From assembly GCF_021283545.2 (NCBI RefSeq), contig NZ_CP128540.1, positions 375,501-439,500 on the forward strand: DNA of 64,000 bases, read 5' to 3'. This document shows, piece by piece, positions 1 to 63,316 of this stretch. Both the position numbers and the translations under genes were made by a program. The first letter of the stretch is position 1, and every line of letters begins with the position of its first letter. Below the pieces are notes generated by a model, which had not been told where the DNA came from, made no database searches, and saw only the letters and a program-made list of their open reading frames with translations. Source of the stretch: Pseudomonas alloputida (GTDB taxonomy: Bacteria; Pseudomonadota; Gammaproteobacteria; Pseudomonadales; Pseudomonadaceae).

Positions 1-2603
1 GCAACCGCCAGCAGCTGCGCATTATCTGGCGCGACATTACCCGTCAGGCGGAACTTGGCGAAACCTGCCGTGACCTGTCGGACCTTGCCGATGCGGCCAT
101 CGACGAAGCCTACCAATGGCTGTACCCGCGTCATTGCCAGCAATTCGGCACGCCCATCGGCAACCGCAGCGGCCAGCCGCAGCACATGGTGGTGCTGGGC
201 ATGGGCAAGCTGGGAGCGGTAGAGCTTAACCTGTCGTCGGACATCGACCTGATCTTCGGCTTCCCCGAGGGCGGTGAAACCGAAGGGGTGAAGCGCTCGC
301 TGGACAACCAGGAGTTCTTCACGCGCCTGGGCCAAAGGCTGATCAAGGCACTGGACCCGGTTACCGTCGACGGCTTTGTGTTCCGCGTTGACATGCGCCT
401 GCGTCCCTATGGTTCGGCGGGTGCCCTGGTGCTCAGCTTCAATGCACTGGAGCAGTACTACCAGGACCAGGGCCGTGACTGGGAACGTTACGCGATGATC
501 AAGGCGCGGGTGGTGGCCGGCGACCAGGCGGCCGGCGCGCAGTTGCAGGAGATGCTGCGCCCGTTCGTGTACCGCCGCTACCTGGACTTTTCCGCAATCG
601 AAGCGCTGCGCACCATGAAGCAGCTGATCCAGCAGGAAGTGCGGCGCAAGGGCATGGCCGAGAACATCAAGCTGGGTGCCGGTGGTATTCGCGAAGTAGA
701 GTTCATCGCCCAAGCCTTCCAGCTGATCCACGGCGGGCGTGACCTCAGCCTGCAGCAGCGGCCGTTGCTCAAGGTGCTGGCCACCCTGGAAGGCCAAGGC
801 TACCTGCCGCCAGCAGTGGTGGCCGAGTTGCGCGAGGGTTATGAGTTCCTGCGGTACACCGAGCACGCGATCCAGGCCATTGCCGACCGCCAGACGCAAA
901 TGTTGCCGGAAGGTGAGACCGATCAGGCACGCGTGGCCTACGTGCTCGGTTTTGCCGACTGGCAGAGCTTCCACGACCAGTTGATGTACTGGCGTGGCCG
1001 TATCGACTGGCATTTCCGCCAGGTCATTGCCGACCCGGATGATGAAGACGGCGAAGGCGAACTGGTGGTGGGTGGCGAGTGGTCGCCGTTGTGGGAGCAG
1101 GCGCAGGATGAAGAAGCCGCTGGCCGGCAATTGCAAGAGGCTGGCTTCAAGCAACCCGCCGAAGCCTTGAGGCGCCTGGCCGGGCTGCGTTCCAGCCCGC
1201 AGTTGCGCTCGATGCAGCGCATCGGCCGTGAGCGACTTGACGCATTCATCCCACGGCTGCTGGCCCAGGCGGTGGAGCATGACAACCCCGACCTGGTGCT
1301 GGAGCGGGTGTTGCCATTGGTCGAGGCTGTGGCAAGGCGTTCTGCCTACCTGGTACTGCTGACCGAAAACCCCGGTGCCCTGCGCCGTTTGCTGACGCTG
1401 TGCGCCGCCAGCCCGTGGATTGCCGAGCAGATTGCCCTTTACCCGCTGCTGCTCGACGAACTGCTCAATGAGGGCCGCTTGTTCAGCCCGCCCTTGGCGC
1501 CAGAACTGGCCAGCGAGCTGCGCGAGCGCCTGACGCGCATCCCCGAGGACGACCTGGAGCAGCAGATGGAGGCGCTGCGCCATTTCAAGCTGGCCCACAG
1601 CCTGCGCGTGGCCGCCTCGGAAATCAGCGGCAACCTGCCGTTGATGAAAGTCAGCGACTACCTGACCTGGCTGGCTGAAGCCATCCTCGACCAGGTGCTG
1701 GCCCTGGCCTGGCGCCAGACCGTGGCCCGCCACGGCCAACCCAAGCGCAGCGACGGCAGCCTGTGCGACCCGGGTTTCATCATTATCGGTTACGGCAAGA
1801 TGGGCGGCCTGGAGCTCGGCCACGGTTCGGACCTGGACCTGGTCTTCATCCATGACGGCGATCCGCAGGCGGAAACCGACGGTGCGAAGCCTATCGACAG
1901 CGCGCAGTTCTTCACGCGTCTGGGGCAGCGCATCATCCACTTGCTGACCACCCAGACCAACTCGGGCCAACTGTACGACGTGGATATGCGCCTGCGCCCG
2001 TCCGGCGCCTCGGGCCTGCTGGTCAGCTCGCTGGGCGCCTTCGAACGCTACCAGCAGAACGAAGCCTGGACCTGGGAACACCAGGCGCTGGTACGGGCCC
2101 GTGTGCTGGTGGGTTGCAAGCAGGTGGGGGCGGCATTCGAAGGTGTGCGCGCCAAGGTACTGGGCCAGGCCCGCGACCTGGAAAAGCTGCGCGGCGAGGT
2201 GAGTGAAATGCGCGCCAAGATGCGTGACAACCTCGGTACCAAGGCGACGGCTGCCGGTACCGCGGCGAACGCCTTCGACGCCGGTGTACCCTTCGATATC
2301 AAGCAGGATGCCGGCGGTATCGTCGATATCGAATTTATGGTGCAATACGCCGCTTTGGCCTGGTCCCATGACCATCCGGCCATACTTCGATGGACCGATA
2401 ACATCCGCATTCTGGAAGAGCTGGAGCAGGCGAACCTGATGCCGGCCAGTGACGCGGTGCTGTTGCGTGAAGTGTACAAAGCGTTCCGCTCGGCCTCCCA
2501 CCGCCAGGCCCTGCAGAAGGAGGCCGGGGTGATCGATGCGGCACAGTTTGCCGATGAACGCCGTGAAGTGCGGCGGATCTGGGGTGAGTTGGGTTTAAGC
2601 TGA
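1..2603 (+). CDS. glnE: Glutamine synthetase adenylyltransferase/deadenylase GlnE, 5'-truncated
   Basis: Bifunctional enzyme that adenylylates and deadenylylates glutamine synthetase in response to PII, coupling GS activity to nitrogen status. The reading frame is open from the left edge (frame starting at base 3), so the N-terminus lies outside; about 866 residues are visible against roughly 980 for the family. Two nucleotidyltransferase signatures are present: MGKLGAVELNLSSDIDLIF near bases 200-256 (adenylyl-removing half) and GYGKMGGLELGHGSDLDLVF near 1790-1848 (adenylylating half). Each is followed by a second conserved block (DMRLRPYGSAG and DMRLRPSGASG). The stop is followed by a REP pair and then the LPS core operon. 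Confidence 0.97.
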   Translation, partial: NRQQLRIIWRDITRQAELGETCRDLSDLADAAIDEAYQWLYPRHCQQFGTPIGNRSGQPQHMVVLGMGKLGAVELNLSSDIDLIFGFPEGGETEGVKRSLDNQEFFTRLGQRLIKALDPVTVDGFVFRVDMRLRPYGSAGALVLSFNALEQYYQDQGRDWERYAMIKARVVAGDQAAGAQLQEMLRPFVYRRYLDFSAIEALRTMKQLIQQEVRRKGMAENIKLGAGGIREVEFIAQAFQLIHGGRDLSLQQRPLLKVLATLEGQGYLPPAVVAELREGYEFLRYTEHAIQAIADRQTQMLPEGETDQARVAYVLGFADWQSFHDQLMYWRGRIDWHFRQVIADPDDEDGEGELVVGGEWSPLWEQAQDEEAAGRQLQEAGFKQPAEALRRLAGLRSSPQLRSMQRIGRERLDAFIPRLLAQAVEHDNPDLVLERVLPLVEAVARRSAYLVLLTENPGALRRLLTLCAASPWIAEQIALYPLLLDELLNEGRLFSPPLAPELASELRERLTRIPEDDLEQQMEALRHFKLAHSLRVAASEISGNLPLMKVSDYLTWLAEAILDQVLALAWRQTVARHGQPKRSDGSLCDPGFIIIGYGKMGGLELGHGSDLDLVFIHDGDPQAETDGAKPIDSAQFFTRLGQRIIHLLTTQTNSGQLYDVDMRLRPSGASGLLVSSLGAFERYQQNEAWTWEHQALVRARVLVGCKQVGAAFEGVRAKVLGQARDLEKLRGEVSEMRAKMRDNLGTKATAAGTAANAFDAGVPFDIKQDAGGIVDIEFMVQYAALAWSHDHPAILRWTDNIRILEELEQANLMPASDAVLLREVYKAFRSASHRQALQKEAGVIDAAQFADERREVRRIWGELGLS

Positions 2604-2615
2604 TACCGTGTTGGC

Positions 2616-2703
2616 TTATTCGCGGGCAAGCCCGCTCCCACAGGTACTGCACAGGCCCTGAGCAGTGTGCAATCCCTGTGGGAGCGGGCTTGCCCGCGAA
2701 TAG
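2616..2703. repeat. REP inverted pair
   Basis: Two copies of the Pseudomonas REP core (TTCGCGGGCAAGCCCGCTCC and its complement) face each other across about 33 bases, at 2617-2642 and 2675-2703. Each copy is itself a hairpin. The pair fills the glnE-waaF gap and could act as a transcript-stabilising or terminating structure. Confidence 0.9.
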
Positions 2704-2805
2704 GCCATGTGAGTGGTACACTGTCCGCCACATAGCCTGAATATAAAGAGGGGAGGCCAGGCTGTACCGCAGCCTGTAGCCTCCCCGAGCGTTTCTGGAC
2801 TAAGC

Positions 2806-3855
2806 ATGAGAATACTGATCATTGGCCCCAGCTGGGTCGGCGACATGGTGATGGCGCAGACCCTGTTCCAGTGCCTGAAACAGCAGCACCCCGACTGCGT
2901 GATCGACGTGCTGGCCCCTGAATGGAGCCGGCCGATCCTCGAGCGCATGCCTGAAGTGCGCCAGGCCTTGAGCTTCCCGCTCGGCCACGGCGCGCTGGAG
3001 CTGGCCACGCGGCGGCGCATCGGCAAGTCCCTGGCCGGCCAGTACGACCAGGCCATCCTGCTGCCCAACTCGCTCAAGTCGGCGCTGGTGCCCTTTTTTG
3101 CCGGCATTCCCAAACGCACCGGCTGGCGCGGTGAAATGCGCTTCGGCCTGCTGAACGATGTGCGCAAGCTGGACAAGGCCCGCTACCCGCTGATGATCGA
3201 GCGCTTCATGGCCCTGGCTTACGCACCCGGCGCCGAGCTGCCGCAGCCATACCCGCGCCCCAACCTGCAGATCGAAGCGCAAAGCCGTGACGCCGCCCTG
3301 GCCAAGTTCGGCCTGGAACTGGACCGTCCGGTACTGGCGCTGTGCCCTGGCGCCGAGTTTGGCGAAGCCAAGCGCTGGCCGGCAGAGCACTATGCCGCTG
3401 TGGCCGATGCGATGATTCGCCAAGGCTGGCAAGTGTGGCTGTTTGGCTCGAAGAACGATCACCCGGTCGGTGAGCAGATCCGCGACCGGCTGATTCCGGG
3501 GCTCCGTGAAGAATCGTCCAACCTGGCCGGTGAGACCTCGCTGGCCGAGGCCATCGACCTGATGTCCTGCGCCCATGCCGTGGTGTCCAACGACTCCGGC
3601 CTGATGCACGTGGCCGCTGCGCTGAACCGTCCGTTGGTGGCGGTGTACGGCTCGACTTCACCCGGCTTCACCCCGCCGCTGGCCGAACAGGTGGAAGTGG
3701 TGCGCACCGGTATCGAGTGCAGCCCGTGCTTTGACCGCACCTGTCGCTTCGGCCATTACAATTGCCTGCGTCTGCTGGAACCGGGCAAAGTGATCGCCGC
3801 CCTGCACAGCCTCAGCGGGCCGGACCTGATCGATACCGTGGCCGAGGTCGACTAA
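2806..3855 (+). CDS. waaF: ADP-heptose:LPS heptosyltransferase II
   Basis: GT9-family glycosyltransferase that adds the second L-glycero-D-manno-heptose to the LPS inner core at the inner face of the inner membrane. The 349-residue product starts MRILIIGPSWVGDMVMAQ, the typical WaaF N-terminus, so I use ATG 2806 rather than an in-frame codon about 90 bases upstream. The central ALCPGAEFGEAKRWP and the C-terminal SNDSGLMHVAAAL and GSTSPGFTPP blocks are the ADP-heptose-binding signatures. It is the first gene of the LPS core operon, with waaC following directly after its stop codon. Confidence 0.95.
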   Translation: MRILIIGPSWVGDMVMAQTLFQCLKQQHPDCVIDVLAPEWSRPILERMPEVRQALSFPLGHGALELATRRRIGKSLAGQYDQAILLPNSLKSALVPFFAGIPKRTGWRGEMRFGLLNDVRKLDKARYPLMIERFMALAYAPGAELPQPYPRPNLQIEAQSRDAALAKFGLELDRPVLALCPGAEFGEAKRWPAEHYAAVADAMIRQGWQVWLFGSKNDHPVGEQIRDRLIPGLREESSNLAGETSLAEAIDLMSCAHAVVSNDSGLMHVAAALNRPLVAVYGSTSPGFTPPLAEQVEVVRTGIECSPCFDRTCRFGHYNCLRLLEPGKVIAALHSLSGPDLIDTVAEVD

Positions 3856-4914
3856 GTGCGGGTACTGATCATCAAGACCTCGTCGCTGGGGGATGTAATC
3901 CACACCCTGCCGGCGCTTACCGATGCCGCCCATGCCATTCCCGGCATCCGTTTCGATTGGGTGGTGGAAGAAGGCTTCGCCGAAATCCCCAGTTGGCACC
4001 CCGCGGTCGACCAGGTCATCCCGGTGGCGATCCGTCGCTGGCGCAAGAACCTCTGGCAAACCATCAAGAGTGGCGAGTGGAAGGCGTTCAAGCAGCGCGT
4101 GCGCGAGCGCAAGTACGACCTTGTGATCGACGCCCAGGGCCTGGTCAAGTCGGCCTGGTTGACCCGTTACGTGAAGGCACCCGTAGCCGGCCTGGACCGC
4201 TACTCGGCGCGCGAAGGCTGGGCCAGCCGCTTCTACGACCGACCTCTGTCGGTTGCCACCGGCCAGCACGCGGTGGAGCGGGTACGCCAACTGTTTGCCA
4301 TGGCCCTGGCCTATGACCTGCCAGAAGGCATCGGCAACTACGGCCTGGACCTCGACCGCCTGCAACTGCCGCCGGCTGCGCCCTATGTGGTGTTCCTGCA
4401 TGGCACCACCTGGGCGACCAAGCATTGGCCCGAAGCCTACTGGCGCGAACTGGCCGAGCGCATGGGCCGGCGCAAGCTGGAAGTGCGCCTGCCTTGGGGT
4501 AATCCGGCTGAGAAGGCGCGGGCCGAGCGAATTGCCCAAGGCTTGAACAACTGTCAGGTACTCCCCAAATTGAACCTTGCCGGCGTCGCTCGTGTTCTGG
4601 CGGCGGCAAAGGCCTGCGTGGCGGTCGATACCGGCCTTGGCCACCTGGCGGCGGCACTCGATGTGCCCACCCTTTCGCTGTTTGGCCCTACCAACCCGGG
4701 CCTGACTGGCGCCTACGGACGGACCCAGATTCACCAGGCCAGTGACTGGCCTTGCGCTCCCTGCCTGCAGAAGAAGTGCACCTACAAACCGAGCGCCGAT
4801 GACCTGGCCCGGTTCGATCTGAAACGCGAGTGGCCGCTGTGCTTCACTCGCCTGAATCCCGAGCATGTGGCGAGCCGCTTGAGCGCGTTGCTGCTGGCTG
4901 AGGATGTCCGTTGA
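3856..4914 (+). CDS. waaC: ADP-heptose:LPS heptosyltransferase I
   Basis: GT9 enzyme that transfers the first heptose onto Kdo2-lipid A. The product is 352 residues and begins MRVLIIKTSSLGDVIHTLPALTDA. The start is GTG at 3856, immediately after the waaF TAA, which indicates tight translational coupling. The donor-binding end of the fold is visible as VAVDTGLGHLAAALDVPTLSLFGPTNP. The stop overlaps the waaG start by one base. Order and spacing agree with the conserved Pseudomonas waaF-waaC-waaG-waaP block. Confidence 0.95.
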   Translation: MRVLIIKTSSLGDVIHTLPALTDAAHAIPGIRFDWVVEEGFAEIPSWHPAVDQVIPVAIRRWRKNLWQTIKSGEWKAFKQRVRERKYDLVIDAQGLVKSAWLTRYVKAPVAGLDRYSAREGWASRFYDRPLSVATGQHAVERVRQLFAMALAYDLPEGIGNYGLDLDRLQLPPAAPYVVFLHGTTWATKHWPEAYWRELAERMGRRKLEVRLPWGNPAEKARAERIAQGLNNCQVLPKLNLAGVARVLAAAKACVAVDTGLGHLAAALDVPTLSLFGPTNPGLTGAYGRTQIHQASDWPCAPCLQKKCTYKPSADDLARFDLKREWPLCFTRLNPEHVASRLSALLLAEDVR

Positions 4915-6038
4915 TGCAACTGGCTTTCGTGCTTTACAAATATTTCCCCTTCGGCGGGCTGCAGCGCGATTTCATGCGCATTGCCCTGGAATGCCAGAAG
5001 CGGGGCCACCAGATCCGTGTGTATACGCTGATCTGGGAGGGTGACATTCCGCCGGGCTTCGAAGTGCTGGTGGCGCCGGTGAAGGCGATTTTCAACCACC
5101 GCCGCAACGAGAAGCTCAGCGCCTGGATGGCCGCCGACCTGGCCAAGCGCCCGGTCGACCGCCTGATCGGCTTCAACAAGATGCCAGGGCTGGACGTGTA
5201 CTACGCCGCCGACGGCTGCTTCGAAGACAAGGCGCAGACCCTGCGCGGTGGGCTGTACCGCCGCTGGGGCCGCTACCGGCACTTTGCCGAGTACGAGCGT
5301 GCGGTGTTTGCCAAGGACGCCCATACCGAAGTGCTGATGATTTCCGAAGTGCAGCAGCCGCTGTTCATCAAGCATTACGGCACCCCGGTAGAACGTTTCC
5401 ACCTCCTGCCGCCAGGCATTTCCCAGGATCGCCGTGCGCCGGCCAATGCCGCCGAGATCCGCGCTGAGTTCCGCAAGGAATTCAACCTGGGGGATGACGA
5501 CCTGCTGCTGGTGCAGATTGGCTCAGGCTTCAAGACCAAAGGCGTGGACCGCAGCCTCAAGGCACTGGCTGCGCTGCCGTCAGCCCTGCGCAAACGCACC
5601 AGGCTGATGGTGATCGGCCAGGACGACCCCAAGGTATTCCAGCTGCAAAGCGCTACCCTGGGCTTGGGCGACCAGGTGCAGTTTCTCAAGGGCCGCAGCG
5701 ATATCCCGCGCTTCCTGCTGGGCGCCGACCTGCTGATTCACCCGGCGTACAACGAGAATACCGGTACGGTGCTGCTCGAAGCGTTGGTCGCCGGCTTGCC
5801 GGTGCTGGTGTCCAAGGTGTGCGGTTATGCCCACTACATTGCCGAGGCCGACAGCGGCCTGGTGCTGGACGAGCCGTTCGAACAAGAGCAGCTCAACGGC
5901 TATCTGCAGCGCATGCTCGAAGACCCGCAGGCGCGTGCCAGCTGGTCGCGCAATGGCCTGGCATTTGCTGATAGCGCCGATCTGTACAGCATGCCGCAGC
6001 ATGCTGCCGACGTGATCCTGGGGCAAAAAACCGCATGA
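4914..6038 (+). CDS. waaG: LPS core glycosyltransferase WaaG
   Basis: GT4-family (GT-B fold) transferase that adds the first outer-core hexose to heptose II. The 374-residue product starts MQLAFVLYKYFPFGGLQRD, with the glycine-rich acceptor loop FPFGGLQRD near the N-terminus. The donor-site block with conserved glutamates, HPAYNENTGTVLLEALVAGLPVL, sits at about residues 278-300. ATG 4914 overlaps the waaC TGA (TGATG); a TTG three bases upstream is an alternative. The 3' end overlaps waaP by four bases. Confidence 0.95.
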   Translation: MQLAFVLYKYFPFGGLQRDFMRIALECQKRGHQIRVYTLIWEGDIPPGFEVLVAPVKAIFNHRRNEKLSAWMAADLAKRPVDRLIGFNKMPGLDVYYAADGCFEDKAQTLRGGLYRRWGRYRHFAEYERAVFAKDAHTEVLMISEVQQPLFIKHYGTPVERFHLLPPGISQDRRAPANAAEIRAEFRKEFNLGDDDLLLVQIGSGFKTKGVDRSLKALAALPSALRKRTRLMVIGQDDPKVFQLQSATLGLGDQVQFLKGRSDIPRFLLGADLLIHPAYNENTGTVLLEALVAGLPVLVSKVCGYAHYIAEADSGLVLDEPFEQEQLNGYLQRMLEDPQARASWSRNGLAFADSADLYSMPQHAADVILGQKTA

Positions 6039-12823: not shown

Positions 12824-13932
12824 GCGCGTGCCTCCCAGGGTTTGCGCTGTTTGCTCCACCACAGGTAGAGGCCGCTGCCGAGCACGATGATTGTCAGCAC
12901 GTCCAGTAACGCCCAGAGGATCTGCATCGGTCGCCCGCCGTAATCGCCGAAATGCAGTGGCTGCGACAGGCCCATGGCATCCATGTACCAGGGACGGTCG
13001 CCTACGGCAGTCACTTCAAGGGTGCGAGCATCGATCAGTACCGGCGTGAACAGGTGCGAACTCAGGTGTGTGGCACCGTTCATGAATACCGCATAGTGGT
13101 GCTCACTGGAGAAACGCGTGCCTGGAAACGCGATGAAGTCCGGGCGCATGCCCGGCGCGGCCTGTTCGGCAATGTCCAGCAGGCGAGTGGCTGGAGCGCG
13201 CTCGACGAGCGGCGGGGCGTCGCGGTAGGGGGCAACCATCGCAGCCAGGCTGTCGTTGCGCCAGGCCGCAATGACCAGGTCGGACAGGGCACTGATTACC
13301 CCGGTCACGCTCACCGTCAATGCCCAGGCCAGGGTGACCACGCCGATCAGGTTGTGCAGGTCGAGCCAGCGCAGGCGGCGGGATTTCTTGTGGCGTACGG
13401 TGCCGAATTCCAGGCGGCGCATGAACGGCGCATAGAGCACGGTGCCGGAGACAATCGCGACAATGAACAATACGCCCATGAAGGCCAGCAGCAGCTTGCC
13501 CGGCAGGCCTGCGAACATGTCCACATGCAGGCGCAGCATCACCATCATGAATCCACCATTGGCGGCCGGCATGGCCACCGCCTCGCCGGTGCGTGCATCG
13601 AGCATGAAGGTGTGCGACAGGTTGGGGTCGGTGCTGGCGGTGGCGGCGGTAATGGCGACCACGCCGTTGGGCTCGTCTTCATCGTAGCCGAAGTACTGCA
13701 TGACCTCGCCGGGGCGATGTTGTTCGGCCTTGAGCACCAGTTGCTGCAGGTCGAGGTGCGGGGTGCCTGCCGGCATTTCACGCAGTTCAGGGGCGTCGCC
13801 TAGCAGGTGTTCGAGTTCGTGGTGGAAGATAAGGGGCAGGCCGGTGACTGCCAGCAACAGCAGGAACAGGGTACAGACCAGGCTGCTCCAGGTGTGGATC
13901 AAGGACCAGCGGCGGATGGTGGGGCTCTTCAT
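12820..13932 (-). CDS. PepSY-associated TM protein (iron-regulated, PiuB-like)
   Basis: An inner-membrane protein of about 370 residues with the N-terminal helix IHTWSSLVCTLFLLLLAVTGLPLIF, typical of PepSY-TM proteins. It has further helices at about residues 140-165, 185-215 and near the C-terminus (ILWALLDVLTIIVLGSGLYLWW), and two periplasmic PepSY-type segments. Members sit beside TonB-dependent siderophore receptors and are thought to help reduce or release ferric siderophores. It lies directly downstream of the receptor on the same strand. ATG 13932 is used; a GTG immediately before it is equally possible. Confidence 0.85.
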   Translation of the reverse strand: MKSPTIRRWSLIHTWSSLVCTLFLLLLAVTGLPLIFHHELEHLLGDAPELREMPAGTPHLDLQQLVLKAEQHRPGEVMQYFGYDEDEPNGVVAITAATASTDPNLSHTFMLDARTGEAVAMPAANGGFMMVMLRLHVDMFAGLPGKLLLAFMGVLFIVAIVSGTVLYAPFMRRLEFGTVRHKKSRRLRWLDLHNLIGVVTLAWALTVSVTGVISALSDLVIAAWRNDSLAAMVAPYRDAPPLVERAPATRLLDIAEQAAPGMRPDFIAFPGTRFSSEHHYAVFMNGATHLSSHLFTPVLIDARTLEVTAVGDRPWYMDAMGLSQPLHFGDYGGRPMQILWALLDVLTIIVLGSGLYLWWSKQRKPWEARA

Positions 13933-39423: not shown

Positions 39424-39557
39424 ACATGGACGTTGCGCAGGAAGCGCAAAGGACAGATCAAGGACGACGACGAAGGACCACCTGCCAGGATGGCGGGGCG
39501 ATACGGATGTCACAGGGAAACAGTCTGGAAAACCCCGCTTCGGCGGGGTTTTCTTTG
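39424..39557 (+). ncRNA. rsmY: RsmY small regulatory RNA
   Basis: Untranslated RNA that sequesters RsmA/CsrA-family translational repressors. The 5' hairpin ATGGACGTTGCGCAGGAAGCGC matches known RsmY sequences. Many GGA motifs follow (AAGGACAG, AAGGACG, AAGGACC, CAGGATGG, ACGGATG, CAGGGA). It ends in the terminator stem GAAAACCCCGC-TTCG-GCGGGGTTTTC (39528-39553) with a TTT tail. The 5' end is inferred from a TTAATC-like -10 at about 39412 and from the GacA box; it could be off by several bases. Confidence 0.9.
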
Positions 39558-55740: not shown

Positions 55741-55785
55741 TGGTGGGCCCACACGGACTCGAACCGTGGACCAAAGGATTATGAG
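55741..55785 (-). repeat. Attachment site: 3' half of tRNA-Ile2(CAT)
   Basis: On the minus strand these 45 bases read from the anticodon loop (CTCATAA, anticodon CAT) through TTTGGTC, the T arm CACGG-TTCGAGT-CCGTG, the acceptor TGGGCCC and ACCA. The 5' half is absent and the sequence departs at 55786. This is the displaced copy left when an element integrates into a tRNA 3' end; the intact gene should lie at the element's other end, beyond the window. The initiator-type alternative is unlikely given the loop and arm sequence. Confidence 0.85.
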
Positions 55786-55937: not shown

Positions 55938-57359
55938 ATGGCAAAACGTGCAAGGTTGACCGACCTGGAAGCTCATGCGGTCAAGACCAGGAAGTCGGAG
56001 CCAGTCGGTTCGCGAGGCAAAGGAACGTTGCTCCTGGAGCGCAAGGCATCCGGTGCCATTAACGCCTACTACCGGGAGAGAACGCCTACCAGCGATCAGC
56101 GTCTGCCGCTTGGCACGCTAGCCCGCAAGCCCCGACCAGGAACAGGCGAGCGAACATTAGATGAGCTGAGGTCTGATGCTATGCGCCTGGCTGGCGAGGT
56201 AGGGGCCGCAGGCGGGATTGGGAAGTACCTGGAGCAGTTGGCAGAGCACAGCGCGGCGATGGAGGTGGAAAGGCTTCGGCTACAGCGCCAGGCAGAGGCT
56301 TTGGCGCGGCGCGGCACCTTTGGTGAGCTGCTGGATAGCTACGTGAGCAAAATGGTGGCAGAGGGCAGGGTAAGCGCCAAGGAAATCGACAACATGTTTC
56401 GGCTGCATGTGAAAGACTACCATCCGGGACTGGTAGACCGTGCGGCTGCCGACATTGAGCCAGAGGACATACAGCTCATCCTGGCAGGTGTGTTGGGTCG
56501 TAAACCCAAGGGGCGGGGGATCGGCCATAGGGCTGCAGGGACATCGGCCAACGGCATGCGCACGACGTGCGACAAGCTCCGCCGCTACCTGCAAGCCGCC
56601 TTCAGCCATGCTGCAAAAGCCCACCTTGCTCCTGAGCGGATAGCCAATGAGGGCAAGGTATTTTCGATCCGCTCCAACCCAGTGAGGGATATTCCTGTCA
56701 CTCAAGGAACTGGGGCCGGTGACACCGAGTCGCTCACACCTGATGAGTTGGGAGCCCTTCTGAGGCACCTCGACACACTGCCCGTCAGGCACGCGGCGAT
56801 TGCCAAGGCAGCCATTTACCTGGGTGGTCAACGCCTCACCCAGCTATGCACTGTGCCTTGGGAGGCCGTCACAGACGACACGCTGTGCCTTATGGACGGG
56901 AAAGGGCGCAAGATGCAAGCGTGGGAGCATTTGCTACCGATCACCGAGCGAATCGGCCAGATCCTCGAGCCGCTGCTAGATGACCGCATTGGCCCTGGGC
57001 CTTTCTCGCTGACGCTCGGGAAGTCTGCTAATCCAAATACTGTCTCGGCCATGTTTATCGATGCAGGTCGATCACTTTCGGCAGCCGGTAAGTCCCGTGC
57101 GTTCACCTGGAAGAATGTCCGCGTGACGGCTGAATCACTCCTGGCACACCTGGGCGTCGGCGCTGAGGTGCGGGCTTGGCTGCTATCACATGGCCGCAGT
57201 GGAGTGCAGGCAAAGCACTACGACCGTTATAGCTACCTGCCTGAGAAGCGCGCGGCTCTGGAGCAGTGGGGTAGGTACTTAGATAGCCTGGTCAACGGCG
57301 ATTCACCTGCCAATGTGGTGTTGTTAACCCGCCGCTCAAAAAAATCCGACGAACGGTAA
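55938..57359 (+). CDS. Tyrosine-family site-specific integrase
   Basis: A 473-residue integrase next to the tRNA att site, with a divergent N-terminus (MAKRARLTDLEAHAVKTRKS), a SAM-like core-binding region (about 125-245) and a C-terminal catalytic domain. Catalytic candidates are Arg in AIYLGGQRLTQL, Lys in DGKGRKM, the Trp-for-His variant FTWKNVRVTAES carrying the second Arg, His in WLLSHGRSGVQ, and Tyr in KHYDRYSYLP. GGGGAAGG, twice repeated, precedes ATG 55938. The non-coding stretch after it (57360-57840) holds a palindrome and a hairpin. Confidence 0.92.
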   Translation: MAKRARLTDLEAHAVKTRKSEPVGSRGKGTLLLERKASGAINAYYRERTPTSDQRLPLGTLARKPRPGTGERTLDELRSDAMRLAGEVGAAGGIGKYLEQLAEHSAAMEVERLRLQRQAEALARRGTFGELLDSYVSKMVAEGRVSAKEIDNMFRLHVKDYHPGLVDRAAADIEPEDIQLILAGVLGRKPKGRGIGHRAAGTSANGMRTTCDKLRRYLQAAFSHAAKAHLAPERIANEGKVFSIRSNPVRDIPVTQGTGAGDTESLTPDELGALLRHLDTLPVRHAAIAKAAIYLGGQRLTQLCTVPWEAVTDDTLCLMDGKGRKMQAWEHLLPITERIGQILEPLLDDRIGPGPFSLTLGKSANPNTVSAMFIDAGRSLSAAGKSRAFTWKNVRVTAESLLAHLGVGAEVRAWLLSHGRSGVQAKHYDRYSYLPEKRAALEQWGRYLDSLVNGDSPANVVLLTRRSKKSDER

Positions 57360-57375
57360 GTTCGTCTCGATTGAT

Positions 57376-57396
57376 GGATATGTGGCCCACATATCC
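57376..57396. promoter_or_regulatory. 21-bp palindrome just after the integrase stop
   Basis: GGATATGTGG and CCACATATCC flank a single central C, a perfect dyad too tight for a stable hairpin loop. A further CATATCC follows within ten bases. It may be an operator or a recombination directionality-factor site. Confidence 0.5.
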
Positions 57397-57613
57397 GTGC
57401 ATATCCCCCAGAGCGATAACCAGAAAGCTAAAACCCTTCTAAATCAGCTGCTTGACCGGCTTCTCTCCGCTCTCTGCGCATTGTTTTAAGTGAGAAACCG
57501 TAGATACCATTCGATCACTGGATGACCTCCACGAACAGCTCTGAAACACCCGAATTAGACGGTGCTGACCGGAATGACTTCGTGGATTTGTGTGTACTGC
57601 AGGCAAAAAGAAA

Positions 57614-57636
57614 CCCCGGTATTTGCCGTACCGGGG
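57614..57636 (-). terminator. Hairpin terminator facing the integrase
   Basis: CCCCGGTA and TACCGGGG form an 8-bp stem with a seven-base loop; on the minus strand TTTCTTTTT follows. It would stop leftward transcripts before they run into int. No convincing gene was found in the 57360-57840 gap around it. Confidence 0.65.
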
Positions 57637-57840
57637 CTTATCAGATGAAGGCGATATCAGCGCCCTCCTGCGTACATGGAAAAACCAGTACACGTTCCGA
57701 GAGGTGAAGCGGTTGCAGAGATTTCGACTTGGGTCGTAAGCCCAGCCGGAACTGTATTGCGAGTGGGGGGGCCATGCAACATCTGCCTTCCACCCGTGCT
57801 CCACCGTCTCGGTTTTTCATAGCGCTTAGAGAAATCGACG

Positions 57841-58056
57841 ATGACGCCCGCCATTGACAATGCACCTGTTCCGAACGTTCCGCGTGCTGGTATCCGTGCC
57901 ACCACCGAGCAGCTATGCACTCTTTACCAGATAAGCCGCACCACCTTCTGGCGCTGGACGAAAGCCGACAACTTCCCCGTACCTATCCGTGCTGGTCGCG
58001 TCCTGCGCTGGGATGCAGACGCCGTAGACGCCTTCCTCACAAACAGGAAGGGTTGA
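57841..58056 (+). CDS. AlpA-family regulator / excisionase-like protein
   Basis: A 71-residue protein with a MerR-like winged helix: EQLCTLYQISRTTFWRWTKADNFPVPIRAGRVLRWDADAVDAFL. This is the AlpA/Xis pattern, with the conserved arginine- and tryptophan-rich wing, which typically activates integrase or excision and controls early genes in P4-like elements. ATG 57841; it ends just upstream of the structured leader. Confidence 0.88.
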   Translation: MTPAIDNAPVPNVPRAGIRATTEQLCTLYQISRTTFWRWTKADNFPVPIRAGRVLRWDADAVDAFLTNRKG

Positions 58057-58145
58057 GCCATGCCGATTCGCACAGCGACCCCACCGAGGGTTGCAAAGTT
58101 ACGCGTGCGCCGCTATCGTTCGTTCGTCGCTGCCAATTCAGCGAC

Positions 58146-58212
58146 CGGGTTTGGCGACCCGATTACTGTTAGGCGCACAGGCGCCCCCATCACGATTGCA
58201 GGCGCTTTTTTT
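58146..58212 (+). promoter_or_regulatory. Leader with alternative hairpins and T7 tract
   Basis: CGGGT/ACCCG (58146-58150 with 58157-58161) is one hairpin. GGCGC (58172-58176) can pair with GCGCC (58181-58185), and the same GCGCC can instead pair with GGCGC (58201-58205), followed by seven T (58206-58212). The two last stems exclude each other, the layout of an attenuator: one fold is a terminator, the other blocks it. Confidence 0.5.
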
Positions 58213-58233
58213 GTGCCCGTACATCTTGTTTAT

Positions 58234-58311
58234 GGTGGCTGTGCGCGGGAGACCCTCGGGTCTGCCGGGTGCCTAACGTCCCGGTTCGCCAACCTGCGCA
58301 CAGCTGCCACC
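58234..58311 (+). ncRNA. Candidate C4-type antisense RNA
   Basis: A closing stem joins GGTGGCTGTGCGC (58234-58246) to GCGCACA-GCT-GCCACC (58296-58311, 3-nt bulge). Inside it are AGACC/GGTCT (58250-58254 with 58259-58263) and CCGGG/CCCGG (58265-58269 with 58280-58284). The 10-nt loop of the last stem contains CCTAACGT (58272-58279), an exact complement of ACGTTAGG (58351-58358), which overlaps the Shine-Dalgarno of the next gene. AGCTGCCAC (58302-58310) is an exact complement of GTGGCAGCT (58334-58342). Structure plus two complementary target boxes upstream of a start codon is the scheme of phage P1/P7 C4 RNA. Confidence 0.7.
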
Positions 58312-58368
58312 CTAAATCGTTTGGCGACGATCAGTGGCAGCTCCAACGCTACGTTAGGAGTACCACCA

Positions 58369-58683
58369 ATGAAAGCCCTCATTCCGCCTGCAATCCGCGC
58401 ACTCGCTCACCGTCGCATGGCTTTGAGCGCCCTCCGCGCAAATTCATCTCTTTCTGTACGTCTCAAGCGCTACAACGCCCACATGAACATTGTTCGAACC
58501 CTGGAAAGCCAAGGGTGCGCAATGAGCAAGCACCAAATCAACAACCCTGATGCCTTCGCCCCTACGGGGCTCAGCTCGCTACGCTCGACTCTTTACCAGC
58601 GTGGGCTGCTCGCCCACACCCCGGCAGGGCAGTGCCCTGCACCCATGGGCTGCAAATCGCTGCGGCTAAATCCGGCCGATTGA
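58369..58683 (+). CDS. Small protein under the C4-like RNA (Icd-like position)
   Basis: A 104-residue protein with AGGAG (58356-58360) eight bases before ATG 58369. It starts MKALIPPAIRALAHRRMALS, is rich in Arg and Ala in its N-terminal half, and has no domain I can name. In P1-type elements the gene at this position, directly repressed by the antisense RNA, is the cell-division inhibitor icd; that is the basis of the label. The frame is open upstream to 58060 through the RNA structure; I do not believe that part is translated. Codon choice supports coding from 58369. Confidence 0.6.
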   Translation: MKALIPPAIRALAHRRMALSALRANSSLSVRLKRYNAHMNIVRTLESQGCAMSKHQINNPDAFAPTGLSSLRSTLYQRGLLAHTPAGQCPAPMGCKSLRLNPAD

Positions 58684-58783
58684 TCACCTGGGGCACTGGT
58701 TGCCATTGATTTGAGCTGTTGCGAAGAGGGTTATAGGCGTATCAGACCTGTGATCTTCCTCCCCTCATTACGGGACGACTGAG

Positions 58784-59398
58784 ATGAACATTTTCCAAGA
58801 GCGCACTGATGCGCTGAAGGGTTCGGCTTGCCTGGAAAAAGCCTTTGATGTGCTGCACCTGGACGCGCACAGCGCTCAAGTTGGGTATGTGAAGCCCGTT
58901 CGGACATATCGCTTGGTCGGTGACCAAGATAGCGTCCAGGCAGGCGACTACGGAACAGCAATTGGCGGAGACAGTGGCACTGCCATGACCGGCGAAAGCG
59001 GAACGGCAGTGGTAGGAGACAGGGGCTCAGCGCTGGCAGGAATGTTCGGGACAGCAAGTGCTGGGGAGTGGGGGCGTGCCACAGTTGGTGACGGTGGTGT
59101 GGCTTCTGTTCTTACTTGCGGTATCGCCATTGCTGGTCATTGTGGGGTAGCAAATGCCGGTGATTACGGTACTGCTTCTACCGGTGACAAGGGGACAGCC
59201 AGCGCAGGAATCGGGGGAGCGGTCTGTGCCGGCGAGCAGGGGGAAATTCGGCTCAAGTATTGGGACGGTCGGGCACAGCGCTATCGCACCGCTGTTGGTT
59301 ACATAGGTGAGAAAGGTTTGTTGGCCGGAGTTTTGTACAAGCTGGGCAAAAACCGTCGCTTCATCGCTGTGGGCGCTTGCCAGGGGGACGTTCAATGA
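58784..59398 (+). CDS. Octad-repeat beta-solenoid-like protein
   Basis: A 204-residue protein with about a dozen repeats of eight residues, roughly (A/G)G(D/E)xGTAx, from residue about 53 to 152. Examples are AGDYGTAI, GGDSGTAM, TGESGTAV, AGEWGRAT and TGDKGTAS. The C-terminal EIRLKYWDGRAQRYRTAVGYIGEKG resembles the tail of a family of phage-encoded repeat proteins. A right-handed solenoid is likely. Each repeat is 24 bases, so length variation by recombination is possible. It is co-directional with the replication genes; the next start overlaps its stop by four bases. Function unknown. Confidence 0.75.
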   Translation: MNIFQERTDALKGSACLEKAFDVLHLDAHSAQVGYVKPVRTYRLVGDQDSVQAGDYGTAIGGDSGTAMTGESGTAVVGDRGSALAGMFGTASAGEWGRATVGDGGVASVLTCGIAIAGHCGVANAGDYGTASTGDKGTASAGIGGAVCAGEQGEIRLKYWDGRAQRYRTAVGYIGEKGLLAGVLYKLGKNRRFIAVGACQGDVQ

Positions 59399-59637
59399 AA
59401 ATTGGCGTTAAAACCAACCCTCTTACGATCGAGCAGCTATCACAGCTCTCAGGGCAGTCCACCGCTTCGATTCGTCGTGAGATCAAGAATGGGGTCTACC
59501 GCACCATTCCAAATCCTGACGGCACAAAAGGCGTGTTCATCGACATGGAAGATTTGGCGCAGCAAGCAACGCAGCAAGCCGAAGAAGCTCTACGCCAAGC
59601 CCGAGGGACAAGCCTTCTCCGAAAGGAGCAGAAATGA
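59395..59637 (+). CDS. Small HTH DNA-binding protein
   Basis: An 80-residue protein starting MKIGVKTNPLTIEQLSQLSGQ. The segment TIEQLSQLSGQSTASIRREIKNGVYRTIPNPDG looks like a MerR/excisionase-type helix-turn-helix with a basic wing, followed by a glutamine- and alanine-rich helix. ATG 59395 overlaps the preceding stop, and its stop overlaps the primase start (ATGATGA). It may control replication or excision; it lacks a diagnostic family motif. Confidence 0.7.
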   Translation: MKIGVKTNPLTIEQLSQLSGQSTASIRREIKNGVYRTIPNPDGTKGVFIDMEDLAQQATQQAEEALRQARGTSLLRKEQK

Positions 59638-60650
59638 TGAGCCACTTGCGACCTGTTGAATTGATCCGTCATGCAGCAGCTGGAGCCCTGAGTGCGGCTG
59701 ATGTGCTTTTGGCCGAGTGGCTTCCTGAAGGCAAACGTAAAGGCCGCGAATGGGTGGCGGCGAACATCGCTCGCGGGGATCGGCAAGCCGGTTCCTTCGG
59801 TGTATCGCTCGACACAGGCCGGTGGAATGATTTCGCTGACAGCGGTGCCCATGGCGGCGACCTAGTGTCGCTGCTGGCCTATCTGCGTGGATGCGGTCAA
59901 CTGGATGCGGCCAAGGAAGTGGACGAGCGCCTGGGCCTGGGCCTCTCCAAGCTTACGGTTACGGATGCTCAGCAGCTACAGGAACGCCAACAAGTGTCCG
60001 AGCGCGAGCGTGCCTCTTGGCGCCTGCGTGAACAACAGCTCCAGGAGGAAAAGCAGCTCCAGGCTGCCCGTGAAGCCGCGCAGCTCTGGAAAGTAGCGAA
60101 GGCCGCTGATCCACTGCACACCTACCTGTTGGCCAAGGGGGTGAAACCGCACCTGGTGCGCCAGTTGGGGCAAGGGCGGTTGGTGGTGCCGCTCTGTGAT
60201 AACGGGCGCTTGGTGAACCTGCAGATCATCACGCCGGATGGCAGCAAACGCTTTCTGATGGGGGGGCGTGTCCAAGGTTGCTATTCGCCACTGGGCAAAC
60301 TCTCCGAGGGATGCCGCCTGTATGTGTGTGAGGGTTGGGCAACGGGCGCCACGCTGCACCAAACCACCGGGTGTCCGGTGGTCTGTGCGATGAATGCCGG
60401 AAACCTTAAGGCTGTAGCCATGGCCATGCGTGAGCGCTATGGCGCCACGCTTGACCTAGTTATTGCCGGTGACGATGACCGCAGCACGGCTAGTAATCCG
60501 GGAAAGCGTGCTGCCAACCAAGCCGCTCGTGCTGCCGATGCTCGTGTGGTTTTCCCTGAGTGGCCCTCTGACGCCCCCTCCGCCCTATCCGATTTCAACG
60601 ACCTGCACCTCTGGCTTGCGGGTCAATCCAACAAGAGCTGCAAGCCATGA
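59634..60650 (+). CDS. Toprim-domain DNA primase (P4-alpha-like primase half)
   Basis: A 338-residue protein with an N-terminal primase-type region (RWNDFADSGAHGGDLVSLLAYL), a coiled-coil-prone stretch at residues about 115-150, and a Toprim domain. The catalytic Glu is in LYVCEGWATGATLHQTTG and the DxD is in LDLVIAGDDDRST. It should synthesise primers for element replication. In P4 the primase and helicase are one chain; here they are split between this gene and the next, which overlaps by four bases. Confidence 0.9.
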   Translation: MMSHLRPVELIRHAAAGALSAADVLLAEWLPEGKRKGREWVAANIARGDRQAGSFGVSLDTGRWNDFADSGAHGGDLVSLLAYLRGCGQLDAAKEVDERLGLGLSKLTVTDAQQLQERQQVSERERASWRLREQQLQEEKQLQAAREAAQLWKVAKAADPLHTYLLAKGVKPHLVRQLGQGRLVVPLCDNGRLVNLQIITPDGSKRFLMGGRVQGCYSPLGKLSEGCRLYVCEGWATGATLHQTTGCPVVCAMNAGNLKAVAMAMRERYGATLDLVIAGDDDRSTASNPGKRAANQAARAADARVVFPEWPSDAPSALSDFNDLHLWLAGQSNKSCKP

Positions 60651-62419
60651 GCACACATGAAAAGCCCCCGACCTTGTGCCTGGTGGGCGAGCCACAAGCA
60701 CCTGCATTCGAAAAGCTGGAGCGGCCCCGCTACGCCGTTTACGAGAACCCTTGCACCGTGGAGGGCAAGCTCTACAAGGCCGGCACCTGGTATCACGGAT
60801 TGAAGCAAAGCGGGCCTGATGAGAAGGCCATTCCGGTTGATCACTGGATCTGTGCCCCCCTGAATGTGGAAGCTGAAACGATTAATTCAGAGGACGGCAC
60901 CATAGGCCGCTTGCTGTCGTTCACTCACCGGGGACGGCGCATCGAATGGGTCATGCCTATGGAGGCACTGGGTGGGAAGGGTGATGAGGTATTGAAGGTG
61001 CTGCTGAGTCGCGGCCTGGTCATCGAGCACCACCAGCGCCGCCAGATCGTGCCCTACTTGGCCAGCCACCAGTCACCTGAGTTGGTGATCGCTACCACCA
61101 GCAAGCCGGGCTGGCATGAGTCGGGAGCGTTTGTACTGCCGTCTCGCGTCATTGGCGGGGACAACGTGCGTTTCCAAGACTCTGGCAGGGCGGCCAACAT
61201 TTTCACCAGCAAGGGCACCGTCGACGGCTGGCAGACCGAAATTGCCGCCCGGTGTGTGGGCAACCCCGTGTTGATCCTGTCAGTTTGCTGTGCCCTGGCG
61301 GGCCCTTTGCTCGCCAAGGTGGGGGTGAATGGCGGCGGCGTGCACCTGGTGGGTGATTCGTCGAGTGGTAAATCCCTTGCCCAGCTCCTCGCAGCGTCCG
61401 TGTGGGGCAATCCTGGGGCGTTCGCCGCGTCCTGGGACGTATCGAAGGGCGGTATCGAGATCGAGGCCGCATCTCGTAATGACACCATCCTGATCCTGGA
61501 CGAAATCAAGCGGGCTGACCCAAAGCGGGTTCAGGAAATGGCGTATGCCATCGCCAACGGTATGGGTAAGGGCACCATGACCAGGGAGCGGGAGGGCCGT
61601 GCCAAGTTGACCTGGCGTGTCCTGGCGCTATCCAGCGGGGAGCGTTCACTGTCAGACCACGCCGCCATTGGTGGCAGCAACGCCCACGCCGGTGCCGAGC
61701 TGCGCATGGTGGATGTCAATGCTGGCACCCGCACACACCGCGCCTTCGACGACGTACACGGGCTGACCGGGCAAGAATTCCACCGGGTTGTGAGTGATGC
61801 CGTCACCCAGCATTACGGCCACGTAGGCCCAGCGTTCGTGGAGTCGCTGATTCAGCATCCGGAAGATCTGCACAGCGCATTCCGGCAGGTACGGGAAGCC
61901 TTTGCCACCGAGAGTTCACAGGCAGGCCGGGTAGCGGATCGCTTCGCAATCATGGCGCTGGCTGGTGAATCGGCTATTCGTCGCAAACTGCTGAAATGGC
62001 CGAAAGGGACTGCCATCAAGGGCTGCCAAACGCTGTTCAACGAATGGCTGCAAACGATGGGTGACGGTAGTGCAGAAGATCGTCAAATACTTAGTGGTAT
62101 CAGCGAATTTATCGCCCTACACAGTGATAGTCGTTTTTCAGACATTTACGCCGAACATGCCAATGTAACTGTTCGTGAACGTGCTGGTTATTACCAGGTT
62201 GATTCCGATAAGCGTCTTTATTTGTTTAACCCACCTGGTCTTAAAGAGGCAGCATCTGGATTTAGCCAGGCTCGAATAGTACGCGCCTTGATCGGCGTGG
62301 ACGCCCTGGTGCAAATGGATAGTGAAGACAATCGGTGGACGAAAAAGCGACGCACGCCAGGTGGCGGGAATTCCCGTTTTTACGTGATTGACCCCGATAG
62401 GCTAGAGAAAGAGGGGTAA
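60647..62419 (+). CDS. DUF927-domain ATPase (helicase-like)
   Basis: A 590-residue P-loop protein with the Walker A motif HLVGDSSSGKSLAQ at about residues 232-245, Walker B in DTILILDEIKRADPKR and an arginine-finger candidate region (MTREREGRAKLTWRVLALSSGERSLSD). DUF927 proteins follow Toprim primases in many mobile elements and act as replicative helicases. It ends shortly before a cluster of repeated GGGAAC sites, the candidate origin it would open. The last part of the gene is more AT-rich than the rest. Confidence 0.9.
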   Translation: MSTHEKPPTLCLVGEPQAPAFEKLERPRYAVYENPCTVEGKLYKAGTWYHGLKQSGPDEKAIPVDHWICAPLNVEAETINSEDGTIGRLLSFTHRGRRIEWVMPMEALGGKGDEVLKVLLSRGLVIEHHQRRQIVPYLASHQSPELVIATTSKPGWHESGAFVLPSRVIGGDNVRFQDSGRAANIFTSKGTVDGWQTEIAARCVGNPVLILSVCCALAGPLLAKVGVNGGGVHLVGDSSSGKSLAQLLAASVWGNPGAFAASWDVSKGGIEIEAASRNDTILILDEIKRADPKRVQEMAYAIANGMGKGTMTREREGRAKLTWRVLALSSGERSLSDHAAIGGSNAHAGAELRMVDVNAGTRTHRAFDDVHGLTGQEFHRVVSDAVTQHYGHVGPAFVESLIQHPEDLHSAFRQVREAFATESSQAGRVADRFAIMALAGESAIRRKLLKWPKGTAIKGCQTLFNEWLQTMGDGSAEDRQILSGISEFIALHSDSRFSDIYAEHANVTVRERAGYYQVDSDKRLYLFNPPGLKEAASGFSQARIVRALIGVDALVQMDSEDNRWTKKRRTPGGGNSRFYVIDPDRLEKEG

Positions 62420-62849: not shown

Positions 62850-63062
62850 TTAAATGATGTCTGCCCCATACTTATCATCGCTGTCCGGTTTGATACCTCC
62901 CGCCTGATTGACTAGATCGATAGTTGTCCAGGGGCCCGAGCGACCACGGAATATCCTTACCCCTTGATCTATTAAGCACCGCTCAACATCGGAGCGCCGT
63001 TGATAACCTGTAACCTGCTGAAGGTCCTGGAACGTCAGCACACCAGGTACGGCCCTAGTCAT
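62850..63062 (-). CDS. DUF4224-like small regulator
   Basis: A 70-residue protein that reads MTRAVPGVLTFQDLQQVTGY and then QRRSDVERCLIDQGVRIFRG. The pattern resembles DUF4224 (an LTxxDLxxxTG start, a central basic-hydrophobic turn and a Gly-rich end). These small phage proteins are probably DNA-binding. It overlaps the stop of the Ogr/Delta gene by four bases on the minus strand, so the two form a leftward operon. Confidence 0.65.
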   Translation of the reverse strand: MTRAVPGVLTFQDLQQVTGYQRRSDVERCLIDQGVRIFRGRSGPWTTIDLVNQAGGIKPDSDDKYGADII

Positions 63063-63316
63063 GTCAATAAGTCCAGCTGCTGGAGTATCTGTGTTTGCTG
63101 TTCCTCAGTGAGTTGCAAAATTCGATCAATTATTGTGTTTCCTACTGCCTTTGAATTTGCAGGCTTTAGAGTATGAGAGAAGCTGAACTCTGAAACAAAG
63201 CTGTGCCCGCAGTGCGGCTCAAGACACATGCAATAGAGTTTCGCATAGGTTGGTGACTCTTCTTCCACTCTAGAAATACGTGCTTTTTTTCCACAAGATC
63301 CACAATAAACCCGCAT
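63059..63316 (-). CDS. Ogr/Delta-type zinc-finger transcriptional activator
   Basis: An 85-residue protein with an N-terminal zinc finger, CGSCGKKARISRVEE...YAKLYCMCLEPHCGHSF (Cys-x2-Cys and Cys-x4-Cys), matching P2 Ogr and P4 Delta, which activate late promoters at TGT-N12-ACA sites via RNA polymerase alpha. Such a site lies 35 bases from its own start, in front of the gpO-like gene. The C-terminal part (ILQLTEEQQTQILQQLDLLT) is a helical tail. ATG 63316. Confidence 0.85.
   Translation of the reverse strand: MRVYCGSCGKKARISRVEEESPTYAKLYCMCLEPHCGHSFVSEFSFSHTLKPANSKAVGNTIIDRILQLTEEQQTQILQQLDLLT

Follow-up and report, generated by a model that had tools for sequence, protein, structure and literature searches.

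By its sequence, the stretch 58228–58314 on the forward strand of the window is a genuine, canonical phage immunity RNA of the C4 family. The window is the whole analysed stretch of 64,000 nucleotides from Pseudomonas alloputida. The covariance-model match that the first-pass annotation had sought was found there, with 82.0 bits against a cut-off of 45 (Rfam C4 antisense RNA, RF01695; E 1.5e-14). Probably, this RNA is cut from an early-operon leader and represses that same operon by antisense pairing, with possible attenuation. It is a known kind of RNA in a new host element and extends C4 to a satellite-like Pseudomonas element.

Fold and pairing boxes of the leader RNA

The closing stem with two inner hairpins, described in the first-pass annotation, is borne out by the Rfam match and by folding. 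The fold consists of a 17-bp closing stem and two hairpins, and 58225–58320 has a minimum free energy (MFE) of -51 kcal/mol with z = -5.08, equalled by 0 of 200 shuffles. Among 99 unique C4s, 96.3% of the stem cells are paired, whereas 1000 shuffles reach 88.3% at most, and covariation supports the fold. Comparison with P1 makes 58234–58311 the likely mature form; GGT starts at 58234, the same position as in P1 C4.

Two further Rfam families match upstream on the same strand. One is the c4-a1b1 motif (RF03163) at 58113–58165 with 64.5 bits over a cut-off of 46.7. The other is an isrK-like leader RNA (RF01394) at 58126–58212, marginal with 53.6 bits over a cut-off of 50, where Rfam and the fold together place two hairpins, b1 and a terminator. 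A possible sigma-70 promoter, TTGCAA-N17-TATCGT at 58091–58119 (+), agrees with 8 of 12 consensus bases, and its hexamers are identical in the sister element L146. A promoter scan gave none above threshold, this candidate falling below it. Elsewhere in the window, the RsmY regulatory RNA lies at 39426–39552 (120.6 bits, Rfam).

We named the boxes by the annotated P1 record AF234172, where the order is a1, b1, C4, a2, b2 and icd. All boxes here are on the forward strand. Upstream of C4 are a1 (TTGGCGA, 58151–58157), inside a predicted hairpin and pairing with a', and b1 (TGTTAGGC, 58167–58174), which overlaps the putative antiterminator arm GGCGC at 58172–58176. Within C4, the hairpin loop b' (CCTAACGT, 58272–58279) is complementary to b1 and b2, the linker a' (TCGCCAA, 58286–58292) to a1 and a2, and c' (AGCTGCCAC, 58302–58310), the 3′ strand of the closing stem, to the c box. 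Downstream are a2 (TTGGCGA, 58321–58327), located with the P1 a2 as template, the c box (GTGGCAGCT, 58334–58342) and b2 (ACGTTAGG, 58351–58358), which overlaps the Shine–Dalgarno AGGAG at 58356–58360. The b'/b2 pairing is exact over 8 bp and the a'/a2 pairing over 7 bp. The distance from the b2 end to the start codon is 10 nt both here and in P1.

All coordinates and complementarities of the first-pass annotation read in the sequence as it gave them, and its assignments needed revision in part. Its full complementarity of the loop CCTAACGT to ACGTTAGG on the ribosome-binding site holds, and corresponds to b'/b2 at the place where P1 has b2. It put two boxes over the ribosome-binding site; ACGTTAGG does overlap it but GTGGCAGCT lies outside. 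Its second pair, AGCTGCCAC/GTGGCAGCT, is real and conserved but makes a third element, c'/c, the canonical second pair being 58286–58292/58321–58327. Its target set thus contained the downstream b2 but misassigned the canonical a2 and missed the upstream a1/b1 copy.

The annotated P1 sites and the box order exclude AGCTGCCAC/GTGGCAGCT as the canonical a'/a2. The targets come in the order a2-c-b2 and their partners within C4 in the order b'-a'-c', so that a single C4 molecule could hold a and c at the same time only by forming a pseudoknot.

The host element and the systems it resembles

The element occupies 12.24 kb between two att copies at tRNA-Met. The copies are 100% identical 45-nt direct repeats of the tRNA-Met 3′ end, attL at 55741–55785 and attR at 67938–67982, the latter in window coordinates but beyond the window. 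The tRNA-Met is at 13739–13815 of L011, whose coordinates become window coordinates by adding 54199. Beyond the window, ORFs of at least 80 aa were listed.

On the forward strand are a tyrosine-type integrase (55938–57359; phrog_1, E 6.6e-23, no Pfam match) and an AlpA-like HTH_17 regulator/excisionase (57841–58056; profile matches). The putative C4-controlled leader ORF of 104 aa (58369–58683), whose first ~52 aa resemble the conserved leader peptide of relatives, is followed by a repeat-rich protein with short GD-x-GTA-like repeats (58784–59398; phrog_18079) and a Cox-like excisionase/repressor (59395–59637; phrog_575). Next come a Toprim_3 primase (59634–60650) and a DUF927 primase/helicase (60647–62419), both by profile matches. 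The replication genes are downstream of b2 and the first ORF on the same strand. The reverse strand carries an excisionase-like gene (62850–63062; phrog_1266, DUF4224) and an Ogr/Delta-like late transcription activator (63059–63316; profile matches). An HTH protein has a weak side match to phrog_57 (E 0.006).

A fragment resembling the gpO capsid scaffold/protease (L011 9234–9827, about 63433–64026 in the window) matches Pfam model positions 3–144 of 268 with 133.8 bits, and a possible capsid-hijacking function in a satellite can be noted for it. The element also encodes two unassigned proteins, one of 241 aa whose TMP_3 match is far below the cut-off (E 0.059) and one of 521 aa (L011 11822–13387), possible cargo, which weakly matches PDC-M02A, a candidate defence family (E 0.0069). 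No clear member of a major capsid, terminase, portal or tail family is among the 12 proteins of the element that were scanned, and the families they match include no sid or psu relatives. The gpO-like fragment and the 241-aa protein are candidates for a sid/psu-type role.

A nucleotide search with window positions 57000–60600 over 19 genomes, its own included, matched 12. The matches in other genomes cover the RNA cassette and the leader start (about 58106–58535), except two short ones in G012. Because they are mostly confined to this part, the cassette sits in different contexts. Phage phiAH14b of Pseudomonas (KU708005, 16.8 kb) is 78.5% identical at 3876–4253 to part of the window cassette; its record carries an integrase, AlpA and a primase/helicase pair, and the deposited annotation at 3876–4253 reads hypothetical proteins.

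Among ten loci with a related helicase, 7 have a C4 over the cut-off and none is in L144 and L145 (83% identical) or the cut-short L152. Hence C4 is not obligatory for this element type. L144 retains the leader peptide at about 3050–3480, and gives no C4 within 1–6000 even at E 0.01; its immunity module is either lost or of another kind. Among 15 relatives with a leader of 52–57 aa, 13 have the leader stop overlapping the start codon (ATGA) of the small gene behind it, which is variable. The window and L146 have a single 104-aa frame running through instead of the ATGA overlap.

P1 C4 (AF234172, 48343–48419) belongs to the same family with 68.8 bits. P1 shares with the window the a1/b1 boxes upstream of C4, the a2/b2 boxes downstream and an ORF behind b2. 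Common to both as well are a c box, the P1 one being weaker (score 16.5), and the antiterminator/terminator that follows b1 and precedes C4. The box sequences differ. P1 controls icd-ant (antirepressor), whereas the window has the leader ORF with primase/helicase downstream, and a2 begins 9 nt past the inferred C4 end in the window but 3 nt in P1.

P4 has an integrase, and AlpA shows kinship with P4. Like the window element, P4 is of satellite size and has a putative DNA-binding protein, the alpha replication gene and delta. Its CI RNA region (X51522) matches the C4 model with 74.9 bits and the isrK model with 60.8, while the c4-a1b1 match of 44.1 is below the cut-off of 46.7. P4 has a single alpha protein but the window element has separate Toprim and DUF927 proteins, and, with no sid or psu relative among the families matched, it carries the truncated gpO-like protein instead. 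By its att copies and gene set, the host element is P4-satellite-like.

The Gifsy-1 isrK-orf45-anrP region, so far as its accessible description goes, resembles the window in the isrK-like leader and the read-through message. Its short ORF shares ATGA with the gene behind it, a trait also of the 13 of 15 relatives but not of the window leader ORF, which continues in frame into the sequence after it. The action reported there for the short RNA, next to antQ, is activation. The accessible part of the report on A. baumannii AB5075 Group 1 C4-like sRNAs (PMC5320573) describes many C4-type RNAs in one chromosome, as in Pseudomonas, and processing at a GGW site, which compares with the GGT beginning at 58234 in the window. 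That part gives no per-copy cis targets, whereas the Pseudomonas copies mostly match adjacent targets.

Cognate pairing, putative attenuator and c box

The complementarity between the C4 loop and the ribosome-binding site is not chance, judging from a sample of 106 C4 records, 99 with a unique C4 sequence. The records came from the own genome (14 of 14, the weak L017b included), G005 (33 of 42), G097 (20 of 35), G088 (6 of 10), G003 (2 of 10) and P1, and the genus search supplied its 30 highest-scoring loci. We compared mean complementarity scores of cognate and non-cognate combinations using unique loops or linkers only, with 5000 permutations each. The records are related by descent, so these tests are non-independent trials.

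The cognate and non-cognate means were 20.73 and 13.07 for b2 (n = 90, permutation maximum 14.28), 18.48 and 13.88 for b1 (n = 90, maximum 14.82), 17.62 and 11.60 for a2 (n = 34, maximum 13.65) and 16.90 and 12.59 for a1 (n = 34, maximum 14.19). The cognate target was best or tied-best in 48/90 for b2, 19/90 for b1, 22/34 for a2 and 13/34 for a1, where the search windows bypassed the true site at some loci.

The class sample took 20 loci (L054–L073) of the 28 from the class search. There, the cognate and non-cognate means were 21.82 and 15.03 for b2, 19.40 and 16.66 for b1, 17.18 and 13.13 for a2 and 21.35 and 15.00 for a1. All permutation maxima were exceeded (18.35, 18.90, 15.43 and 17.90, respectively). 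The cognate target was the best of 20 at 12, 5, 6 and 9 loci in the same order.

Taken jointly, a2 and b2 pairing ranks the own target first in 10 of 14 modules of the own genome, 28 of 33 of G005 and 17 of 20 of G097. The own-genome exceptions, where the cognate target is not the best, are L010, L018, L021 and L017b. Related chromosomes hold many such modules, most with a code largely their own. The module L044 of G007, a genome outside the five compared below, scores 36.0 on the window target, where the cognate C4 reaches 38.0; the window b2, though not a2, is matched by L040 and L043. These results argue against full privacy of the pairing code. In 1750 pairs of chromosomal C4s from five genomes with satellite-type targets, just 10 passed a strict threshold, several outside a2/b2, and 12 of 580 non-cognate satellite pairs passed it. 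A general trans-defence role of the chromosomal C4s finds no support in this five-genome sample.

A natural swap is found in L146 of Pseudomonas guariconensis S4446-10. This element is 93.9% identical to that of the window over 7744 bases and has the same 45-base att repeat. Within 58126–58372, the three boxes b1, b' and b2 account for 15 differences in 24 bases and the remaining sequence for 17 in 223 (Fisher p 1.0e-9). The L146 loop pairs with GCAAACGG, a sequence found in the b1 of L146 as well as in its b2. The compensatory loop and target changes for which the first-pass annotation proposed to look are seen in the cognate tests of the C4 collection and of the class loci and in this swap. 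No other single result speaks so strongly for both b pairs mattering and for a difference in specificity between close relatives.

A putative attenuator lies between b1 and C4 at 58172–58212 (+), with GGCGC at 58172–58176, GCGCC at 58181–58185, GGCGC at 58201–58205 and U7 at 58206–58212, its first arm overlapping b1. A terminator scan lists the a1 hairpin and not the 58201–58212 site, the loop of which is longer than the scan allows. We surveyed 38 loci: 20 class loci, 7 helicase-related ones, P4 and 10 records picked for terminators or distinct letters. A terminator follows b1 in 37/38, an antiterminator arm (score at least 9) is present in 36/38 and the arm touches b1 in 35/38. Among the class loci, 18 of 20 have a b1-overlapping antiterminator before the terminator; L061 is at the threshold, and L057 and L067 fail.

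The arms vary as GGCGC, TGCGG (P1), GGCG (P4 and L070), GAGGC (L068) and others, most sharing GGCGC by descent. The single-locus shuffle p is modest, with a median of 0.040 and 0.645 at L061. For six chosen leaders, the computed probability of the nascent antiterminator with b1 free and blocked is 0.99 and 0.02 in the window, 0.99 and 0.26 in L146, 0.90 and 0.10 in P1, 0.51 and 0.00 in P4, 1.00 and 0.59 in L068 and 0.58 and 0.01 in L070. In the six full leaders, it is at most 0.29 even with b1 free and 0.07 at equilibrium in the window. Hence, with the full leader favouring the terminator at equilibrium, attenuation would require kinetic folding. A C4-triggered attenuator is plausible from these computations but unproven. 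By script, a terminator-like site precedes C4 in 2/14 cases in the own genome, 7/32 in G005 and 3/20 in G097, and most chromosomal C4 modules of these three genomes seem to have no attenuator.

The complement of the closing-stem 3′ strand occurs downstream in 78 of the 99 unique loci (score at least 15). The c-box mean over these 99 is 18.53 against 12.36 when shuffled, while the non-cognate mean is 17.42 and the permutation maximum 18.19 in 5000. In a varied set of 25 loci, P1 and P4 among them, the mean reaches 20.28 while 10000 permutations stay at or below 18.70, the cognate c box being the best of 25 for just 2 of them. By itself, 58296–58380 folds into a c'/c hairpin enclosing the a2 hairpin (z -1.91, 7 of 200 shuffles as good), but the whole-leader MFE structure retains the C4 closing stem instead. 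The annotated features of the fetched P1 record stretch include no c box. The reading favoured by these predictions, though not shown, is a cis hairpin competing with C4 folding.

Proposed mode of action and the C4 family across Pseudomonas

The proposed mechanism runs as follows. Transcription would start near 58126, and an RNase P cut at about 58234 would release a C4 RNA of roughly 78 nt from the early-operon leader. This RNA would pair in trans with a2/b2 to block translation of the leader ORF, and the primase/helicase operon would then be silenced by polarity, as the genes behind the target are by C4 in P1. C4 may also pair with the nascent a1/b1, blocking the GGCGC antiterminator and so ending transcription at 58212, ahead of another round of C4 synthesis. 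This would confer immunity and maintain a P4-type satellite element in the lysogenic state in a self-limiting way, with the loop and target sequences setting the immunity type.

The first-pass annotation had proposed an RNA-based immunity switch for the element. This is supported as an inference by P4, where the C4-family match (74.9 bits) lies inside the annotated cI. According to the accessible part of the IsrK paper, CI RNA keeps the P4 replication genes off in the lysogen. Together, the match in cI and this silencing fit the proposed switch.

The leader could instead act as in Gifsy-1 IsrK, the leader RNA 58126–58212 titrating C4 or opening the message so that the cassette is mainly an induction switch. 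The isrK model match (53.6 bits over 50), a1/b1 being the partners of a'/b', and the activation of read-through message translation by the short IsrK, reported in the available text of the IsrK paper, are consistent with it. However, that match is marginal and the C4 match far stronger, and such an activator is rather unlikely; nor is it exclusive, as C4 binding and a1/b1 titration can coexist. Improbable to a greater degree is that C4 only provokes termination, as P4 CI RNA does, with the overlap of b2 and the ribosome-binding site contributing little. The layout of antiterminator and terminator is common to P4, P1 and the window, and the IsrK paper, in its accessible part, has P4 CI RNA causing termination via pairing with seqA and seqC. 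The same part tells that a C4-like RNA was proposed to act at the isrK terminator but a co-expression test by its authors did not confirm this.

Against termination as the sole action, b2 is on the Shine–Dalgarno at the P1 spacing and the loop scores higher with b2 than with b1 (cognate means of 20.73 and 18.48). Moreover, most chromosomal modules in the three genomes scanned by script are without a terminator-like site, yet the b2 pairing holds there. A decayed, non-functional relic of a former phage is the least probable of all and very hard to credit. The own-genome copy L017b is indeed degenerate (35.3 bits) and fails to recognise its own downstream region, but the window copy retains all four boxes, its element retains both att copies and an open operon, and the sister element L146 differs at the loop, b1 and b2 together, which needs selection. 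Repression of the operon by antisense pairing, with possible attenuation, remains the preferred reading.

Across the genus, 231 of 249 genomes have an RF01695 match, 230 of them over the cut-off, when 16 candidates are scored in each. Scoring 150 candidates gives 42, 35, 29, 24, 20, 15, 10 and 10 C4s in eight genomes that we selected from those having at least 10. The own genome has 14, 13 of them over the cut-off. Across the class, with 11 candidates scored per genome, 29 of 377 genomes have a C4, the own one included. Weinberg 2010 predicted C4 in Pseudomonadales and other orders, the names of the orders being those given by Weiss 2016, and the accessible text of Weiss 2016 describes a large C4-like family in A. 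baumannii.

The 13 further C4 matches of the own genome (L009, L010 and L012–L021; 12 over the cut-off) include 11 directly upstream of small genes of xxVPDPP/xxAPDPP type or DUF3077 genes. We scanned 64 downstream proteins from 67 records of three genomes, 3 having been dropped for an ORF under 40 aa, and found DUF6124 in 33, DUF3077 in 11 (both possible for one protein) and Bro-N in 3. At L082, L122, L113 and similar loci, C4 precedes a Bro-N-like (antirepressor-like) gene, echoing the P1 C4-ant. Neighbouring C4 pairs occur 3.3 kb apart at L017, one being degenerate (35.3 bits), and 0.85 kb apart at L105. As to the synteny of one orphan module, just pieces of the query match in relatives.

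In the literature searched, with most subscription journals and the primary P1/P4 papers outside it, neither the multiplication of C4 in Pseudomonas nor a c box or b1 antiterminator is described; no paper came up for DUF6124, and one for DUF3077. A wider reading, which we offer tentatively and at somewhat below an even chance, has C4s as dual-action attenuators, the c box as a cis choice between repressor and message, and up to about 40 near-orthogonal modules per chromosome with largely private pairing, most guarding DUF6124/DUF3077 genes.

The extra elements and the genus-wide C4 family are what a specialist would follow. Two questions become testable: how the C4/CI RNA causes termination besides translational repression, and what the genus-wide C4 modules with DUF6124/DUF3077 proteins do. 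The near-identical elements of the window and L146, with RNA cassettes differing chiefly in the pairing code, offer a ready-made test of immunity specificity. Should the wider reading hold, the modules of Pseudomonas would amount to an extensive repertoire of natural antisense switches, each nearly orthogonal to the others.
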